DNA of 21,737 bases. It comes from a virus. This document shows, piece by piece, positions 2,476 through 12,862 of this stretch. Below the pieces are notes generated by a model. It saw nothing but the letters and a program-made list of their open reading frames with translations, was not told where the DNA came from and ran no database searches. Within the stretch, counting starts at the first letter, position 1. Each line of letters opens with the position of its first letter. Location: positions 1-21,737 of the IMG/VR virus record IMGVR_UViG_3300021963_000745; one strand, given 5' to 3'. The position numbers were made by a program, and so were the translations under genes.

Positions 2476-4734
2476 TTAGTGAACTAGTGTTGATAAGCCT
2501 GTTTTACTAGAGTTCTTTACTTCTCGTTGCTGTTTAGCTGTTCCAAACGATTGCTTACGTAGGTCTTTAATAAACTTATCAATCTTATCAGAACCAGCAT
2601 TAGAAGAACCATTACCTATCATAGCTACTACATCAGCAGGAAGAACGTATTCATCCCTACTTAGCATAGCAATGTCAGGATTACCACCTTCAACTCTATA
2701 AACTACATTATCTGACATGCCATCACCAGCACCATCTACTCTGCCTTCATGGTAAGAGAGACTGCCACCTTCTTTAAAGGAGCCTTCTTCTTCTCTTTTT
2801 CTTTTTAAAGTAGCACTGTCTTGTTGACCATAACCACCAAAACTTTCTGTAGTTTTGTCTTTACCAAATGAATAATCATAAGCAGCTTTAGCATCTCTTT
2901 CATCAATAGCTTCTGGTGACATATCAGGACTAATAGCTTGTCCAACACCTCTGCCCATAGCAGTAATCCCCTTACCTACAGTAGGACCACCTAATACGTT
3001 TGATATAGTATTAGCCCATCCGATGCCAGGAGCAAATCCAAAGGCTACATCTAGTGCAGTAGCTATTGGGTTCTCTTTAGCATATGCTACTTTGTCTTCA
3101 ACATATCCTGTTATTAAACCAGCTAAACCTTTAGCTTCTGGTTCGGGAGGACCATACTGAGGACCGTAATCAGGATTAGCTATGCTACCGAAGCCTGGAT
3201 TGTTGTCTGGATCATAACTTTCGCCTAAGCCACCAAATCCTGCAACTCCTGTATTGTCAGGATCGGTACCGCCAAAGCCTGGATCGTTGTCTGGATCATA
3301 ACTTTCGCCTAAGCCACCAACTCCTGTATTGTCAGGATCGGTACCGCCAAAGCCTGGATCGTTGTCTGGATCAGAACCTGTACCAGTTCCAGTATCACCA
3401 GTGCCACCGCCGCCAGTGCCACCGCCGCCAGTGCCACCGCCGCCAGTGCCATCATTGCCGTCATTGCCGTCATCGCCGTCATCGCCATCAGAACCATCTT
3501 CTAAGTAAGCTACTTTACCACCTCCAAAAAGACCAATAAGGCCACCTGAAGAAGCTTCTCTAGGTGTATATGCATACTGAGAAAGAACTGGTTTACGTTT
3601 CTCATTTCCTAAGGCAATAGCTAATGCTTGTGCGCTAGATAAGGGAGCATCTTGTCCCTCTCCACCAGGAAGAAGTTCTCCACCAGTTAGAGTATAATCT
3701 TGAAATGTAGGAGGAGGTCTTGGTGCTTCCTTTTTATACTCAGGAGGTGTTAGAGCTAGTCCTAGTCCACCTGATATAGCTCCTTTAATGTAAGGTGTTT
3801 TACTGCTACCTAGAGTTTTAATATTTTCTAAAGAAGCTTCAGCTACAGACATATCTTTAGCAGCACCTTCACCAGCAGTTAACAAACCATATTTACCATT
3901 AGTAGCTTGAGCAGCTTGTGCATCTGTAAGCAGTTGGTTTTCTTTAAAATCTGGACCAACCATTGACGTAGAACCTTTAGTTACTCTAAAGCGTGTTCCA
4001 CTATCTATTGCTGTTTGGTCTGCTGCTAGTTTAGCATTAATACTTTCTGCCTTATCTGCATAATAGGGAGAAAGAGTTGCTGCATCTTGTGGCGGTAGGG
4101 ATAGGGAAGCATAGCCATCTGTAGCATCTGTAGCTGCTGTAGCACCATATTCGTTAAAACCAGCCTCACCACCAAAAGAACCATAATTGCCAGCATAGTT
4201 TGCTGCATCTGTTGCTATTGTTCCTGCTGCTGCATCTGATACTGCTGTTCCTGCCGCTCCCTCTAGTCCTGCTGTTCCTGACATTGCTTCTAAAGCTGGC
4301 CCTGAAGCTATAGAACCTATACCTGCTGTCCCTGCTGAAATAAGCCCACTCTTTAGAGCATCTTCTCCTGACTTTCCAATAAGTAAATTACCAGCCGTGC
4401 TACCTACACCGGCACCAATAGCACCAGCTACTGCTCCTCCTACTGTCCCTGCTCCTACTGAAGCCCCTAATGCAGTTCCAATTCCAGGAGCTACCATTGT
4501 TCCTGCAATTGCCAAGACAATAGGAAGAAGGCTACTAAGATTGAATGCTTCGGGTAGACCAGTATCAGGATTAATTGTCATTCTTCCTGTAGCGGCCATA
4601 GCACGAACTTCACTATCTGTCATATGGACAAGTCTAGTGTCGCCTTTACGCCCCTGTAATGCAAGAAGACTAGCTAATCCCCTAAATGGAGCTTCTGAGT
4701 TAGCCTTATACTGAGAACTAAGTGGCTGTTGCAT
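2476..4734 (-). CDS. Large Gly/Ala/Asp-rich virion protein, probable internal (ejected) structural protein, 752 aa
   Basis: I do not recognise a named family over the full length. Residues about 65-160 are a long hydrophobic Gly/Ala stretch (for example LPIVLAIAGTMVAPGIGTALG) that could cross or perforate a membrane, as expected of ejection proteins. Residues about 410-520 are low complexity: Asp/Gly (DGDDGDDGNDGND), three GTGGG units and 25-residue DPDNDPGFGG repeats. The C-terminus carries EGRVDGAGDGMSDNVVYRV and LSRDEYVLPADVVAMIGNG. This resembles the GPGTGTSD-x-I-PA-LS-x-GEYV-x-PA motif seen in many phage virion proteins. A second hydrophobic Gly-rich stretch lies near residues 550-600. 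The gene starts 6 nt after the preceding stop and ends 26 nt before the GNAT-like gene. A tape-measure-like role is an alternative. Confidence 0.8.
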   Translation of the reverse strand: MQQPLSSQYKANSEAPFRGLASLLALQGRKGDTRLVHMTDSEVRAMAATGRMTINPDTGLPEAFNLSSLLPIVLAIAGTMVAPGIGTALGASVGAGTVGGAVAGAIGAGVGSTAGNLLIGKSGEDALKSGLISAGTAGIGSIASGPALEAMSGTAGLEGAAGTAVSDAAAGTIATDAANYAGNYGSFGGEAGFNEYGATAATDATDGYASLSLPPQDAATLSPYYADKAESINAKLAADQTAIDSGTRFRVTKGSTSMVGPDFKENQLLTDAQAAQATNGKYGLLTAGEGAAKDMSVAEASLENIKTLGSSKTPYIKGAISGGLGLALTPPEYKKEAPRPPPTFQDYTLTGGELLPGGEGQDAPLSSAQALAIALGNEKRKPVLSQYAYTPREASSGGLIGLFGGGKVAYLEDGSDGDDGDDGNDGNDGTGGGGTGGGGTGGGGTGDTGTGTGSDPDNDPGFGGTDPDNTGVGGLGESYDPDNDPGFGGTDPDNTGVAGFGGLGESYDPDNNPGFGSIANPDYGPQYGPPEPEAKGLAGLITGYVEDKVAYAKENPIATALDVAFGFAPGIGWANTISNVLGGPTVGKGITAMGRGVGQAISPDMSPEAIDERDAKAAYDYSFGKDKTTESFGGYGQQDSATLKRKREEEGSFKEGGSLSYHEGRVDGAGDGMSDNVVYRVEGGNPDIAMLSRDEYVLPADVVAMIGNGSSNAGSDKIDKFIKDLRKQSFGTAKQQREVKNSSKTGLSTLVH
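3189..3373 (-). repeat. 75-nt tandem repeats encoding Asp/Asn/Gly-rich 25-residue units
   Basis: The unit beginning ctcctgtattgtcagg at 3246 recurs at 3321, exactly 75 nt (25 codons) later, with an essentially identical sequence. A diverged partial unit precedes it at 3189-3245. The encoded unit includes SYDPDNDPGFGG and TDPDNTGVGG. The second copy departs from the pattern after about 3373. Confidence 0.9.
3401..3490 (-). repeat. 15-nt and 9-nt tandem microrepeats (GTGGG and DGD/NDG units)
   Basis: Three perfect copies of gtgccaccgccgcca (3401-3415, 3416-3430, 3431-3445) encode Gly/Thr units. They are followed by four or five 9-nt units of the attgccgtc/atcgccgtc type (about 3451-3490) encoding alternating Asp/Asn and Gly. 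Both periods are multiples of three and preserve the frame of the 752-aa gene. Confidence 0.9.
4139..4216 (-). repeat. 78-nt dispersed repeat, copy A (in the 752-aa gene)
   Basis: This stretch is identical to 13678-13755 except for one base (c at 4165, t at 13704). It encodes 26 residues including AANYAGNYGSFGGEAGFNEY in the same frame in both genes. The flanking sequence is unrelated. Confidence 0.95.
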
Positions 4735-7160: not shown

Positions 7161-7451
7161 TTACTTTCTTTCCTTTATCTTTATATTCTTTTGAATATTT
7201 ATTACTCTACTATTAGGTTCTACAGCAATAAACTCATGGGCTTGATATGGCTTCCAGTCATAAATACGACCAAGAATTAATGGTATTTCCCATCCAATAC
7301 CTTTTGCTATAAATGAACCACGAGAGACAATAGAAATATGTATATTTTCTTCTGTATGTTCATGCATATTAAGGATATCTCCTACATCTTCAAAATCGTA
7401 GCAAATTCCTTTAAGATCTCCTACTTCAATAATAGAACTAAGCAATGACAT
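7161..7451 (-). CDS. Cupin-domain protein B, 96 aa
   Basis: This is a single-domain cupin (small beta-barrel). Motif 1 reads GDILNMHEHTEENIHISIV, giving candidate metal ligands His30, His32 and Glu34/35. Motif 2 reads WKPYQAHEFIAV with His72. The frame is open up to 7526, but that part overlaps the upstream gene by 89 nt, so I choose the ATG at 7451 (14-nt overlap). A TTG two codons on is an alternative. It pairs with cupin A at 8669-8995, with the same motif spacing and HISIV core, and each cupin closes a fibre-plus-small-gene set. Cupins bind sugars, acids or metals; an isomerase, glycan-binding or fibre-associated role could fit. The substrate cannot be read from sequence. Confidence 0.8.
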   Translation of the reverse strand: MSLLSSIIEVGDLKGICYDFEDVGDILNMHEHTEENIHISIVSRGSFIAKGIGWEIPLILGRIYDWKPYQAHEFIAVEPNSRVINIQKNIKIKERK

Positions 7452-7683
7452 CTGGGGGTGCTTGAACAATCTTGCTGCCAATTGGGGGCGGCGGGACATA
7501 AGGAGCAATAGGCCCATACATTCCATTCAAAATTTTACCATGTAGTATAACCCCATTTTTCTCTACATCATTACTACTTGCAGTAAATGGAACTGCATCG
7601 TGACCATACAACTTCAAAATACAATCTATCATTGATCTATCTTCTGAAGAAAATACTAAATTAGTAACTTTTTCTATATTCAT
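7438..7683 (-). CDS. Small protein after fibre 2, 81 aa, possible fibre-associated/assembly protein
   Basis: Sequence features are SSEDRSMIDCILKLYGHDAV, PFTASSNDVEKNGVILHGKI, then YGPIAPYVPPPPIG. The pattern of an ER-x-x-I-x-C strand, PFTAS-x-x-D, and a Pro-rich tail after YGPIA resembles small proteins I remember downstream of phage tail fibres, but I cannot name a family. It lies 12 nt after fibre 2 and overlaps the following cupin by 14 nt. The position mirrors that of the 76-aa gene after fibre 1, although the two show no clear sequence similarity beyond a Pro-rich end. A fibre chaperone or decoration role is inferred from context only. Confidence 0.72.
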   Translation of the reverse strand: MNIEKVTNLVFSSEDRSMIDCILKLYGHDAVPFTASSNDVEKNGVILHGKILNGMYGPIAPYVPPPPIGSKIVQAPPDVIA

Positions 7684-7695
7684 AATATCCTCTTA

Positions 7696-8652
7696 TTAAA
7701 CTGTTCTAATAAAAATACCAGTTCCATAATCATCACAACAGGTTGTAGCTGGAATATCACTTAATGACCTCCATGTTCCAGATGGTGTAGTTGTTCCTGT
7801 AATATTTATTCTAGCAATGTTTGATGATGCAACGTAAAATGCAGCATATCTTAAATCGCTACCAGCAATAGTTGCCCCTGGAGCATAAGCGGCATTTCCT
7901 ATAACACGAAATAAGCCTACTGCACCAACAGCTCCTAGAGCGGGTACAGGCACTGATCCTGTTAAATTAGTAGCATTAGTAGCACTAACGGCAAATGATG
8001 CATTGGTTGCAGATGTTGCAAAAGTTGCTGATACAGCATTGGTTGCACTAATGGCAAAGGATGCATTAGTAGCAGATGCTGCAAAGACAGCACTAACATT
8101 GGTTAAAGCAGCACCACTACCAGCGTATGAAGCAGCACTCACAATACCACTAAATACAGCAGATGTAGCACTTACAGTAGAAGTAACTACTCTATTAAAA
8201 GTTCCAATACTTGCAGTAATTGAGTTAACAGAGATGTCTGTCTCAACACCACCAAATTTATTAATATTAATACTGTCACAAGCTACCATCATGCCAGAAC
8301 CACTACTTACAACAGATACAGCCGTTCCACTTGGAGTCTTTACTGTAATACCAAAAGACCCAGAAGTGTTATTATATAAGAAATAAATCTTTTCTTTTTG
8401 TGGAATAGTAACTGTTACTGCTGCTGTTAGTGTTCCATCAAATCGAAGACCAAAACTTCTTGAAGTATCTGCTGAACCATTTTGGGTAGTAAGGCTTACA
8501 CCAGTGCTACTTACAGACACAATCTGATAACCAGCCACAGCAGTATCTAATAGATCAATAGTGTTCTGATTTAAGATTGCTCCCCAAGAGTTAGGATTCT
8601 CCCCATTCCCTTGAAGTTCTAATCTTAGACGGTCTGTGTAAGTGCTTGCCAT
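7696..8652 (-). CDS. Tail fibre / receptor-contact structural protein 2, 318 aa
   Basis: The N-terminus (MASTYTDRLRLELQGNGENP, NSWGAILNQNTIDLLD, AVAGYQIVSV) matches the N-terminal domain I know from many marine phage tail proteins, followed by strands such as LTAAVTVTIPQKEKIYFLYN and MMVACDSININKFGG. Residues about 165-230 carry Ala/Ser/Thr/Asn-rich repeats (FAASATNASFAISATNA), homologous at DNA and protein level to those of fibre 1. The C-terminal 75 residues are a distinct short tip (GSVPVPALGAVGAVGLFRVI ... TTCCDDYGTGIFIRTV). The gene lies 16 nt after cupin A. It is probably a shorter second fibre or side domain. Confidence 0.83.
   Translation of the reverse strand: MASTYTDRLRLELQGNGENPNSWGAILNQNTIDLLDTAVAGYQIVSVSSTGVSLTTQNGSADTSRSFGLRFDGTLTAAVTVTIPQKEKIYFLYNNTSGSFGITVKTPSGTAVSVVSSGSGMMVACDSININKFGGVETDISVNSITASIGTFNRVVTSTVSATSAVFSGIVSAASYAGSGAALTNVSAVFAASATNASFAISATNAVSATFATSATNASFAVSATNATNLTGSVPVPALGAVGAVGLFRVIGNAAYAPGATIAGSDLRYAAFYVASSNIARINITGTTTPSGTWRSLSDIPATTCCDDYGTGIFIRTV
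7970..8095 (-). repeat. Short fibre repeat block in fibre 2
   Basis: About two units of the Ala/Thr/Asn-rich fibre repeat are encoded here, one shortened. The stretch gcactaatggcaaaggatgc matches units in fibre 1 exactly or nearly so. Confidence 0.85.
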
Positions 8653-8668
8653 GGTTTAATTAAATCCT

Positions 8669-8995
8669 TTATTTTATTTTTTTCTTTATATATCTATTAG
8701 TCTTTTGAAGTGCTATGCACTCCACACCCTTTACTATATTTATAATCAAAGAATTATCTACGAGTGCAATAAATTCATGCGATTGATTAGGTCTAAAATC
8801 AACAACCTGACCTGCAATAACTTCGATTTCTTGTAACTTGCCTATTATCTTAAACTTCCCGTTTCCGACAATAGAAATATGCTCTGCTCCTGGCGCATGG
8901 TTGTGCATAGGAAGAGTATCCCCTGCGGCTGCGAACGTATAGATCGTCCCACTAATTCCGCCCATATCGAATTTCTTCAGAATTGGTTCAGCCAA
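8669..8995 (-). CDS. Cupin-domain protein A, 108 aa
   Basis: Cupin motif 1 reads GDTLPMHNHAPGAEHISIVG (ligand candidates His31, His33, Glu38). Motif 2 reads GQVVDFRPNQSHEFIALV (His73). The frame starts with TTG at 8995, overlapping the previous gene's TGA by 8 nt (TTGGCTGA), with GGAG about 11 nt upstream. The first ATG is ten codons further on and would cut into the N-terminal strand. Base composition changes inside the gene: by hand count 8881-8940 is 35/60 G+C, whereas 8821-8880 is 20/60. The change falls at the HISIV codons, which are identical over 15 nt in cupin B. This suggests a recombinant gene. The function is unknown; the location suggests a link to the fibre or its receptor glycan. 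Confidence 0.82.
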   Translation of the reverse strand: MAEPILKKFDMGGISGTIYTFAAAGDTLPMHNHAPGAEHISIVGNGKFKIIGKLQEIEVIAGQVVDFRPNQSHEFIALVDNSLIINIVKGVECIALQKTNRYIKKKIK

Positions 8996-9218
8996 CGACG
9001 AAGGCTCCGGTATCTACAGGGACAACTGTGTCTGGTGGTGCGACTGGAATCTCTACAATTTCCTTTGTGGCAGGATTATAGAAAAACAAATCCTGTTTGC
9101 ATGTGTCATCGCAAGCTACCCAGAATAAAGGCTCCGCGACTTCAAACTTCTCCACCGCAACTTCAGCGACACGATAGCCAGTTAAGACTTCTTCATTTAG
9201 GGAAATCAAAGCAAACAT
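8988..9218 (-). CDS. Small protein after fibre 1, 76 aa, possible fibre assembly protein
   Basis: The ATG at 9218 overlaps the fibre 1 stop (TGATG) and is preceded by ggaggag with 8-9 nt spacing, the clearest ribosome binding site in the region. The longer open frame to 9284 is therefore not used. The sequence VAEVAVEKFEVAEPLFWVAC, then YNPATKEIVEIPVAPP follows a pattern I recall from small proteins downstream of phage tail fibres (F-x-V-x-x-x-L-x-W-V-x-C, acidic, then a Tyr-rich strand and a Pro tail). Such genes often encode fibre chaperones or tip attachments. That role is an inference here. It lies in the GC-rich segment that also contains the fibre 1 tip. Confidence 0.78.
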   Translation of the reverse strand: MFALISLNEEVLTGYRVAEVAVEKFEVAEPLFWVACDDTCKQDLFFYNPATKEIVEIPVAPPDTVVPVDTGAFVVG

Positions 9219-11884
9219 CAGTAATACTCCTCCACAATAACGATACCCTGTGCGCCAGCGGCACCAACGCCTTCGATCCCACATCCGCCAGATTGTTTGC
9301 CGCCGCCGCCGCCACCGCCGCCATAAGTGCCACCCACACTACCCGCTTGAGCTACCGCACCACCCGCATTCGGACCACCCCTGCCGCCGCCACCCATTAT
9401 AGACGAACCGCCGCTGCCGCCAGTTGCCGCCCCGGTGCCAGCGGTATATCCCCCGCCAGCCCCGCCCTTGATGTTCACGCTGCCACTTGAACCGACGCCG
9501 CCAGCGCCGGGAGTAGAATCCGTTGCAGCCGCACCTGTCGTAGCTGAAGCATGTGTGCCATAAGATGAAGTCGCACCAGCCGCGCCAACCGTTACTGTCA
9601 CAGTTGCAATCGCCGTAACATCAACGTATTTTATTGATGACCCGCCAGCGCCACCGCCAGGGCCAGCGCCACCAGTGTATCCGCTACCACCGCCAGCAAC
9701 CACCGTGACCTTGACCGTCTTACAATTGGCTGGCCGGGTCCATGTGCTTGAACCAGTAGTGGTGAATACTTGCATGGTCGGCTGCGCGCCACCAGCCGCC
9801 TGGAAAGTTGGATCGACGCCAGCGCCGTTGCTGGTCAGCACTTGGCCGACCGTACCCGCAGTCGTGACTTGAATAGCCCCAGTCGCATTTCCAATCAGAA
9901 CGCCAGCATCTGTGAATGTCGCAGCCCCAGTGCCGCCACTCGCAACACCCAGGGCTGTAGATAAGGTGGTTGCTCCAGTCACCGCAAGAGTGCTGGAAAG
10001 AGTTGCCGCGCCGGAGGCGCTCAGTGTCGTAGCCGCAACCGCTGCGGGCGTAGTCGCTCCAACCGTTCCGTTGATGTTGATTGAAGCGGTGCCGGTCAGG
10101 TTGGTGACTGTGCCGGATGCGGGGGTGCCTAGAATTGCGCCGTTGCCCAGCGTTGCTACGCCAGTAACACCAAGGGTGCTGGATAAAGTAGTCGCCCCGG
10201 TTACGCCAAGGGTGCTGGACAAGGTTGCCGCACCGCTTGCACTCAGCGTAGTAGCACTAACAATACCACCAATTACATTGACTGCATTAGTAGCATTGGT
10301 TGCACTAACGGCAAAGGATGCATTGGTAGCTGATGCAGCAAAGGTTGCTGATACAGCGTTAGTTGCATTAGTAGCACTAATGGCAAAAGATGCATTGGTA
10401 GCAGATGCAGCAAAAGTTGCTGATACAGCGTTAGTTGCATTGGTTGCACTGATGGCAAAGGATGCGTTAGTAGCTGATGCAGCAAACACAGCACTAACAC
10501 CAGTTAGAGCAGCACCACTACCAGCGTATGAAGATGCACTGACAATCCCAGTAAATATAGCAGATGTTCCACTTACTGGTCCAGTAAATACAGCAGAACT
10601 TACTACAGTTAATTGGTTTACAGTAAAGGTTACAACAGATGTAGCAGCAGTGGCTGAAATACCTGTTAAATTGGCACCACTACCATAGAAAGAAGTAGCA
10701 CTTACTATACCACTAAATGTTCCACTAGTAGCACTAACAATACCGCCAATTACATTGACTGCATTGGTTGCATTAGTAGCACTAATAGCAAAAGATGCAT
10801 TGGTAGCAGATGCAGCAAAGGTTGCTGATACAGCGTTAGTTGCATTGGTTGCACTAATGGCAAAGGATGAGTTAGTAGCAGATGCAGCAAAGGTTGCTGA
10901 TACTGCGTTAGTTGCATTGGTTGCACTGATGGCAAAGGATGCGTTAGTAGCTGATGCAGCAAAGGTTGCTGATACAGCATTAGTTGCATTGGTAGCACTA
11001 ATAGCAAAGGATGCATTGGTAGCTGATGCAGCAAACACAGCACTAACACCAGTTAGAGCAGCACCACTACCAGCGTATGAAGATGCACTGACAATCCCAG
11101 TAAATACAGCAGATGTGCCGCTTACAGCAGCAGCAAAAGATGCTCTGTTTAAAACATAAAGATCATTAACAGTATAGGCGCTTACTGAAGTAGGAGCAGT
11201 TGGCAAATTAGTTAAATTACTACCATCACCATAATAAGCAGCAGCACTTACATTGTTGGTAAATGTTCCACTTGCACCAGAGATGTTACCTACTGCTTTA
11301 AACGCAGCCCCTACACTTAATACGCCATCAATGGCTGTGCCACCGACAACATGTAGCGTTCCAGTTATACTAGCAGCAGAATCAAGAGCAAGTGTACCAC
11401 CAATAAAATCAGCAGAACGAACAGTGGCAATAGATACACTAGTAGGGATTGATGCACTGACTACCTGCCCATAAGTATTAACTTGAAATTGAGAAACTGG
11501 CCCATAGCTACCGGCAGAAACACCAGATGTATTTAAACTAAATGTCGGATTACCTTCAGTACCAGTAGCATTTGAAATAGAGATACCATCACCAGCAGTA
11601 AGAGTTCTCCCATAAACATTACTAGCACTAACAGCTACAATACCTGTAACTCCAGTTAAATTAGCCATTGTATTAATAGTCGATGCAGTGGCTGTAAGGG
11701 TTACGCCATTAAACTGAATTGTCCCATTAATGTTCAGAGTGCTGCTACTTAATTGTAATGGAGAATTAGCTCCACTACCATCTTGAATAGTTTGTAATGA
11801 AGCACTTAAACCTACATTACCACTACCTACCTGTAACATCTGTAGATAAGTATTAGCAATCTTTTTTCCGGTTAGTGTAGCCAT
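9218..11884 (-). CDS. Tail fibre 1 with repeat shaft and polyglycine tip, 888 aa
   Basis: The N-terminal virion-attachment part starts MATLTGKKIANTYLQMLQVG and continues with IQDGSGANSPLQLSSSTLNI, a form common to marine phage fibres. Residues about 280-390 and 460-540 form a shaft of 24-residue repeats (FAASATNASFAISATNATNA). Residues about 545-720 switch to another repeat style (TTLSASGAATLSSTLGVTGA, ASGGTGAATFTDAGVLIGNA). The last 165 residues are glycine-rich: FTTTGSSTWTRP and VKVTVVAGGG, then many GGG runs, ending GAAGAQGIVIVEEYY. Such tips resemble polyglycine receptor-binding domains of phage adhesins (Salmonella phage S16 gp38 type, by analogy only). DNA encoding residues after about 545 is GC-rich (43/60 at 9301-9360 versus 23/60 at 10741-10800). 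This suggests an acquired tip. Confidence 0.88.
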   Translation of the reverse strand: MATLTGKKIANTYLQMLQVGSGNVGLSASLQTIQDGSGANSPLQLSSSTLNINGTIQFNGVTLTATASTINTMANLTGVTGIVAVSASNVYGRTLTAGDGISISNATGTEGNPTFSLNTSGVSAGSYGPVSQFQVNTYGQVVSASIPTSVSIATVRSADFIGGTLALDSAASITGTLHVVGGTAIDGVLSVGAAFKAVGNISGASGTFTNNVSAAAYYGDGSNLTNLPTAPTSVSAYTVNDLYVLNRASFAAAVSGTSAVFTGIVSASSYAGSGAALTGVSAVFAASATNASFAISATNATNAVSATFAASATNASFAISATNATNAVSATFAASATNSSFAISATNATNAVSATFAASATNASFAISATNATNAVNVIGGIVSATSGTFSGIVSATSFYGSGANLTGISATAATSVVTFTVNQLTVVSSAVFTGPVSGTSAIFTGIVSASSYAGSGAALTGVSAVFAASATNASFAISATNATNAVSATFAASATNASFAISATNATNAVSATFAASATNASFAVSATNATNAVNVIGGIVSATTLSASGAATLSSTLGVTGATTLSSTLGVTGVATLGNGAILGTPASGTVTNLTGTASININGTVGATTPAAVAATTLSASGAATLSSTLAVTGATTLSTALGVASGGTGAATFTDAGVLIGNATGAIQVTTAGTVGQVLTSNGAGVDPTFQAAGGAQPTMQVFTTTGSSTWTRPANCKTVKVTVVAGGGSGYTGGAGPGGGAGGSSIKYVDVTAIATVTVTVGAAGATSSYGTHASATTGAAATDSTPGAGGVGSSGSVNIKGGAGGGYTAGTGAATGGSGGSSIMGGGGRGGPNAGGAVAQAGSVGGTYGGGGGGGGKQSGGCGIEGVGAAGAQGIVIVEEYY
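10268..10500 (-). repeat. 72-nt tandem repeats in fibre 1, distal block
   Basis: About three copies of a 72-nt (24-codon) unit, for example starting at gcattggtagctgatgc, each encode FAASATNASFAISATNATNA with flanking Val/Ser. The sequence is nearly identical to the proximal block at 10760-11050. Confidence 0.92.
10760..11050 (-). repeat. 72-nt tandem repeats in fibre 1, proximal block
   Basis: About four copies of the same 72-nt unit. Both blocks are preceded by the same larger segment (SASSYAGSGAALTGVSAVFA) and followed by NVIGGIVSAT, so a unit of roughly 500 nt looks duplicated with different repeat numbers. Confidence 0.92.
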
Positions 11885-12184: not shown

Positions 12185-12862
12185 TTATGGTAGGTTTAAT
12201 CTTGGAATAATTCTAAAGTTAACCCGTTCCCTATCTTCTTCCATAGCTCTAGCTAAACGCTCTTCATACTCCTGTTTCAAGAATTGAATACGTCCTCCTT
12301 CAATACCAGACCGCTTCATTGACATAAAGTAAGATAGTCCAGCAGTTAAACAAGGATAGAACCTACGTGAAATATCAGCAATCTGAACAGCAGACTTATT
12401 AACATCTTGAATATACTTGACCTGTTCAATCTTCAAAGAGTAGCCATCCTGATCTGGAATAGGCCATAGAAAGAGTTCTGGATTAGTTCTACTACGGCGA
12501 ATAGCATACTGAGTAGGACGACCAGTCTGTGACTTTCTAGGAATAATAGCATATTCTTCCATACTAATACGAGATAACTGAATGTCTACTCCTGAACTTA
12601 CATTAACAACAACTTCTAAAGTATCAATAGTGCTTGATGTTAAAGCATAGGCAGTAACACTAGTAGATACTGAAACTATTGTAGTATCCGTAGTCCAAAG
12701 AAGAACACCTCTATTCTGCCAATCCTGTAGCAACAAGTTAATTGATCGTCTAGCAGACTTAGGATCATGTCCCAAAGTCTGCTCGCCACCAATCATCTCC
12801 ATAGCTTCTTGGATTACTTCATCAATGTCAAGTGAAAAGTTGTAAGTTCCAGACGTAGACAT
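12185..12862 (-). CDS. Tail accessory factor, P22 gp4-like (tail tubular protein A type), 225 aa
   Basis: The N-terminal helix segment reads IDEVIQEAMEMIGGEQTLGH, followed by SARRSINLLLQDWQNRGVLL. This is the pattern I associate with gp4-like / T7 gp11-like proteins that sit under the portal ring and extend the DNA channel. The central beta strands include AYALTSSTIDTLEVVVNVSS, the conserved-looking turn GRPTQYAIRRSRTNPELFLW and the PIPD segment. Helices at the C-terminus (LKQEYEERLARAMEEDRERV) complete it. It fits with the gp10-like nozzle gene downstream and the adaptor upstream to give a short tail. Confidence 0.82.
   Translation of the reverse strand: MSTSGTYNFSLDIDEVIQEAMEMIGGEQTLGHDPKSARRSINLLLQDWQNRGVLLWTTDTTIVSVSTSVTAYALTSSTIDTLEVVVNVSSGVDIQLSRISMEEYAIIPRKSQTGRPTQYAIRRSRTNPELFLWPIPDQDGYSLKIEQVKYIQDVNKSAVQIADISRRFYPCLTAGLSYFMSMKRSGIEGGRIQFLKQEYEERLARAMEEDRERVNFRIIPRLNLP

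Follow-up and report, generated by a model that had tools for sequence, protein, structure and literature searches.

The closest described counterparts of the system considered here are the tail-fibre chaperones gp25 of phage Pam3 and Tfa of phage Mu. Pam3 gp25 holds the fibre tip with a variable N-terminal beta-sandwich and trimerises through a conserved helical domain at its C-terminus (PMC9608196). We analysed a 21.7-kb environmental virus record from a water-borne phage (IMGVR_UViG_3300021963_000745; this whole stretch of 21,737 nucleotides (nt) is referred to as the window), in which a fibre gene, a gene for a small protein (hereafter adaptor) and a gene for a cupin follow one another twice on the minus strand. 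The adaptors resemble gp25 and Mu Tfa in the position of their small genes (right after the fibre), in a variable N-terminal beta domain that is matched to the fibre tip and in a modular design with a variable N-terminal and a conserved C-terminal part; furthermore, adaptor 2 has an N-domain with homology to annotated Tfa-type chaperones from Pseudomonas phages. They differ from both in that a short conserved C-terminal peptide (hereafter tail) and a separate cupin gene are found where the helical trimerising domain would be expected. We lean, with modest confidence, towards the interpretation that adaptor and cupin, with the latter as hub, make up a split (two-piece) tail-fibre chaperone or tip complex, in which docking, metal binding and a chaperone or cap role are what we infer from the comparisons below. 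In the literature we found no paper describing a fibre-adaptor cupin and none joining tail fibre assembly with a cupin; the cupins mentioned in jumbo-phage and Cellulophaga papers are other proteins.

A profile built from five cupin sequences recovered 45 loci from IMG/VR plus a single bacterial contig (the alpha subfamily, to which the window cupins belong). A more distant subfamily (beta) was uncovered at the same position when loci were fetched with the ALISPNE-type small protein (S1), and a third (gamma) likewise surfaced from the adaptor-based collection. Beta cupins occur at no fewer than 568 places in IMG/VR, and the three subfamilies together are present in hundreds of its contigs, the loci being, with few exceptions, metagenomic fragments. 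Deposited phages added two relatives and no more (the Manatee Spring phages MW202640 and MW202879), which share the fibre-adaptor-cupin order and are of alpha and beta type; their annotation goes no further than ‘cupin 2-like protein’ or hypothetical, with no function proposed. The bacterial contig (L054, JAKFWF010000028.1, from a Hyphomicrobiaceae metagenome-assembled genome) carries the only relative of the alpha cupin of that origin, and may represent a prophage and a clue to the host. At three loci (L280:5285, L275:614 and L283:5288) a gamma-like second cupin directly follows the beta cupin.

Upstream sequence of 450 nt or more was available for 152 distinct cupins, of which 137 are preceded (at a distance of at most 400 nt) by a small protein bearing the tail of the respective subtype (alpha 49 of 51, beta 78 of 89, gamma 10 of 12), the alpha and gamma tail patterns (regular expressions) having been widened after data inspection and being thus partly post hoc, while the stricter beta pattern provides the clean case. 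The fibre normally lies just before the tail-bearing adaptor, and this fibre-cupin link reappears when the small protein replaces the cupin as the query for collecting loci. For most of the remaining cupins the tail-bearing adaptor is situated 160 nt to 2 kb upstream: in L241, L261, L281 and L291 an open reading frame of 58-61 amino acids (aa; IYPNSxPEFR...GYxGKW) intervenes between it and the beta cupin, and in L116, L127 and L266 the distance amounts to 1-2 kb. Two of these loci (L127:4274-4522 and L266:4738-4974) encode before the cupin a tail-less, apparently helical protein (AIAHDARRAARA...), with the tail adaptor about 2 kb upstream. An earlier note on this DNA, which suggested that cupin and small protein serve the fibre, had set a survey of cupin-fibre co-occurrence as its check; related cupins were not found away from fibres. 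The suggestion gains support from this linkage, from the match of adaptor and fibre on one side and from that of adaptor and cupin on the other.

The relation to the Tfa chaperones is visible in the adaptor 2 family. Its N-domain is shared with the Tfa-type proteins of 3MF5 and Banzai (phrog_1141/1795), which possess a longer Tfa-like C-terminal part and have no adjoining cupin. In a sample gathered by the phrog_1141-type N-domain alone, a cupin accompanies none of the 9 members with a long Tfa-like C-terminus, 29 of the 30 with a tail and one of the approximately 21 with neither (the exception being L327). In the S1 family, 40 of 42 tail-less members are without a cupin on the locus. The window adaptors themselves lie directly downstream of a tail fibre, as Tfa genes do, and lack the conserved helical C-terminal trimerisation domain, ending in the tail after roughly 60-70 aa. 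The helical domain on the one hand and tail plus cupin on the other thus appear near-exclusive, and the latter would stand in for the former; it is because a cupin almost always accompanies the tail-bearing members, and seldom or never the tail-less and Tfa-like ones, that we propose a split chaperone or tip complex. One phrog_1141-type adaptor (L305:579-818) has a tail that ends early (QPTTTG) and no cupin downstream, which may reflect joint decay of the two.

On the fibre side, the small proteins (stripped of their last 14 residues) fell into 24 clusters, eight of them with at least three members, and the adaptor N-type was found to be coupled to the C-terminal class of the fibre (assigned by simple patterns), with a mutual information of 1.45 as compared to 0.26 after shuffling (0 of 5000 shuffles). 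Gly-rich fibres pair with ALISPNE, NYxMVDT or MAHFAQLDENN adaptors, GTWR...RIS fibres with phrog_1141-type adaptors, collar-like fibres with LTIIPxD adaptors and ...YIKT fibres with IYxYN adaptors; both window sets follow this pairing rule.

On the cupin side, three tail types were recognised (alpha PxVI(A), beta QPxxxGxQTL and gamma PSxxIPxxVL). Alpha cupins occur with PxVh tails in 39 cases and with a QTL tail in one, beta cupins with QTL tails in 65 and with a PxVh tail in one (Fisher p 1e-26, on sequences that are not fully independent). The matching persists inside single adaptor families and even inside single genomes: in L310, two sets alike in fibre type and adaptor N-domain combine a QTL tail with a beta cupin and an IPASIL tail with a gamma cupin, and similar within-genome matching is present in L318 (beta and gamma) and L012 (beta and alpha). 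In the split chaperone that we propose, the all-beta N-terminal domain of the adaptor would fit the C-terminal domain of its own fibre, in the manner of the ‘tentacle’ domain of Pam3 gp25, and the adaptor would continue not into a helical trimerising domain, but into a flexible, usually proline-containing stretch closed by the conserved C-terminal peptide. This peptide would dock onto the cupin whose gene shares the fibre region with that of the adaptor (the subtypes of tail and cupin being matched). With its small beta-barrel and invariant four-histidine site, the cupin would act as common hub for several fibre-adaptor pairs and bring the adaptors together for folding, trimerisation or capping of the fibre tip.

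A further-reaching version of this idea, which we regard as possible yet doubtful, holds that the metal-loaded cupin is a universal socket that reads the C-terminal peptide of any adaptor with the right tail (perhaps by contacting its free carboxylate at the metal), that unrelated fibre-adaptor cassettes are interchangeable by means of this common plug, and that three plug-socket pairs exist (alpha, beta and gamma), of which a genome may sometimes carry two. Fibre swapping drives the evolution of phage host range, yet little is understood of what keeps a newly acquired fibre compatible with the rest of the particle; modular fibre exchange would be explained if adaptor tails were indeed plugs for one common cupin. 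The cupin would moreover offer a recognisable marker of fibre genes in unannotated environmental phages, and tail and cupin a testable peptide-protein pair with matched specificities.

The AlphaFold2 model of the cupin is a nine-strand barrel (predicted local distance difference test score of about 95 for residues 1-90) with the double-stranded beta-helix of the cupin fold, yielding 187 Protein Data Bank (PDB) matches at E <= 0.001 with cupins on top; the gathering score of PF07883 (Cupin_2) is not reached (cupin A 20 bits vs 27.2; no match for cupin B). Across 61 alpha and beta cupins, four histidines (H31, H33, H39 and H73) do not vary, nor do G46 and N86; the ligand motif HxH...H is thus present and the usual Glu ligand is replaced by the invariant H39. 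Since all four histidines are invariant and the Glu is replaced by His as in TM1459 (in which manganese is held by H52, H54, H58 and H92; PMC5031596), the cupin likely binds a metal. According to Foldseek, TM1459 is among the nearest solved structures, along with KdgF and CelOCE. It is likewise a small single-domain cupin and has the HxHx3H spacing of the beta and gamma cupins, but the alpha cupins of the window have HxHx5H and approximately 22% identity to it, and TM1459 is a dimer that does not come from a phage fibre locus. KdgF (PDB 5fpx/5fpz) shares the fold and ranks first by sequence for both cupin profiles (E 3e-4 and 1e-3), but is a cellular enzyme of sugar-acid metabolism with no link to fibres. 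CelOCE (PDB 9bwf; beta profile E 1e-3, Foldseek E 1e-5) is a similarly compact metal cupin, known as a copper enzyme acting on cellulose (PMC13353379), an activity that is not transferable to the phage cupins on such similarity; the comparison with the three enzymes extends to fold and metal ligands.

These relatives bear on the strongest of the rival explanations, according to which the cupin is an enzyme or lectin mounted at the fibre tip, held there via the adaptor, that uses its metal site to bind a glycan of the host surface or to act on it. The invariance of the four histidines, the activity of KdgF and CelOCE on sugars and the fact that a single cupin can serve several fibres all fit such a role; on the other hand, the sequence similarity to KdgF and CelOCE is weak, and the replacement of the Tfa chaperone domain favours a role in assembly, so that we hold it to be unlikely. 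Less probable still, and in our opinion improbable, is that the cupin oxidises or otherwise alters the adaptor tail or the fibre during assembly, with the tail as its recognition sequence. A conserved C-terminal peptide alongside a conserved metal site would suit a modifying enzyme, as would the apparent 2-oxoglutarate (2OG) oxygenase gene beside one of the sets in L310; however, we know of no four-histidine cupin that modifies peptides, and the ligand set of the cupins differs from that of 2OG oxygenases. This ligand set also led us to discard the idea that the cupins themselves are 2OG oxygenases. The neighbouring gene in question (L310:2325-2864) encodes a protein of 179 aa whose C-terminus resembles 2OG-Fe(II) oxygenases (PKHD-type) and lies between the beta-cupin set and the next fibre.

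Translational coupling could by itself produce a conserved adaptor end, as a by-product of the ribosome-binding and start region of the cupin and with no interaction of the proteins: overlaps of stop and start are frequent, and in alpha cupins of the MSLLS type NVIA is a shifted reading of the start. For the beta type this is contradicted by the sequences. In 56 distinct beta tails (selected solely for the QTL end), Gly occupies position -5 in all 56 with roughly free use of its four codons (GGC 19, GGA 18, GGG 10, GGT 9), Pro occupies -9 in 52 and Gln -10 in 51, and the third bases are highly variable; the beta tail is conserved as protein and not as DNA. Moreover, beta tails are also carried by adaptors whose next gene does not encode a cupin, with the cupin elsewhere on the contig (twice in L116, and in L127, L266, L225, L228, L257 and L285); in L116 a further fibre comes after each of the two QTL adaptors, and the single cupin is 1-2 kb away. 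As such adaptors lie 1-4 kb from the only cupin of their contig, the beta tail would act in trans, and this distance, together with the free third bases, rules out, for the beta type, an origin of the tail in start-site overlap alone. The tail is furthermore absent from homologues without a cupin, and coupling as the sole explanation is, on the whole, very improbable. A passenger role for the cupin, as a metabolic or anti-defence gene brought by chance recombination into the variable fibre region, would agree with the cassette-like gene order and with fibre regions being insertion hot spots, but is scarcely credible in view of a linkage with matched tails across three cupin subfamilies and many unrelated phages.

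Several observations weigh against the split chaperone or tip complex. The helical nature of the long C-terminal parts, with which the tails are compared, is judged from sequence. The alpha tail makes a weaker case than the beta tail, as its last codons overlap the MSLLS start of the cupin in many instances, and, since tail and cupin are mostly adjacent, part of their matching could have arisen by hitch-hiking at a recombination point. An invariant metal site exceeds the needs of a pure scaffold, and the dimeric state of the solved relatives TM1459 and CelOCE offers no obvious fit to a trimeric fibre. Among individual loci, L019 has an alpha cupin immediately after the fibre with no adaptor, L040 has a tail-less Tfa-like adaptor adjoining the cupin, and L312 bears a QTL tail with no beta cupin found on its 24-kb fragment. 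Lastly, Foldseek and VIA-align detected no relative of adaptor 1, and neither these nor Pfam and PHROG gave a match linking its N-domain to Tfa; as its structure searches were without match, its resemblance to Tfa N-domains is argued from the similar role and from the sequence homology of adaptor 2. A fusion of adaptor and cupin made by frameshifting was put aside (the length of the overlap and the relative frame vary), and no natural fusion was seen among the cupin frames.

In the window, the minus-strand order is SU10-type adaptor protein (12185-12862), a 93-aa protein, fibre 1, adaptor 1, cupin A, fibre 2, adaptor 2, cupin B and a phrog_3287 virion structural protein. Fibre 1 (9218..11884, 888 aa; PF21722 E 7.6e-7, phrog_863 E 2.9e-16) has a C-terminal glycine-rich domain (Gly_rich_2), and its stop shares one base with the start of adaptor 1 (8988..9218, 76 aa, ALISPNE type), whose model has an ordered all-beta domain (residues 1-60) and low confidence beyond, in the disordered C-terminal tail. 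This tail (8991..9014, DTGAFVVG) has diverged, in its GAFVVG end, from the alpha pattern (cf. GGPSVVA in the relative L004/L010). Cupin A (8669..8995, 108 aa, TTG start) contains the predicted metal ligands H31, H33, H39 and H73. Fibre 2 (7696..8652, 318 aa; phrog_12796 E 9.9e-8, phrog_31104 E 2e-15) is of the GTWR...FIRTV C-terminal type, and is followed by adaptor 2 (7438..7683, 81 aa, phrog_1141-related), whose alpha-type tail (7441..7461, APPDVIA) overlaps with its last codons the start of cupin B (7161..7451). The latter measures 96 aa from the ATG at 7451 (MSLLSS start) and has the same four histidines as cupin A; its open frame reaches 7526, where a longer ATG start would give 121 aa. 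The earlier description of the doubled three-gene order was accurate in its coordinates, lengths and overlaps (8 nt for adaptor 1 and cupin A, 14 nt for adaptor 2 and cupin B). Elsewhere in the window (2476-4734), a protein of 752 aa is without significant Pfam or PHROG family, and a DNA-level search of the fibre region against phage genomes gave no match.

The two sets are related in part. Cupins A and B are paralogues (43% identity over 83 residues, E 2e-22), both with the HISIV core that had been noticed before. The reported DNA-level repeats are indeed common to the two fibres (up to 85% over 218 nt, E 1e-70), but solely in their middle parts, the N- and C-terminal ends being different; in fibre 1 they form 72-bp tandem repeats (10287..11035, minus strand) in two arrays (10287-10486 and 10767-11035). 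The notion that the module as a whole was duplicated finds no support: only the cupins and the fibre repeats are homologous, the adaptors have no detectable kinship (best E 0.9), and the cupin tree groups cupin A with L004 (95/80) and cupin B with L054 (95/71). Because the two cupins fall in separate parts of the alpha tree, the sets appear to be separate cassettes of the same layout, more likely acquired independently of each other than generated by tandem duplication.

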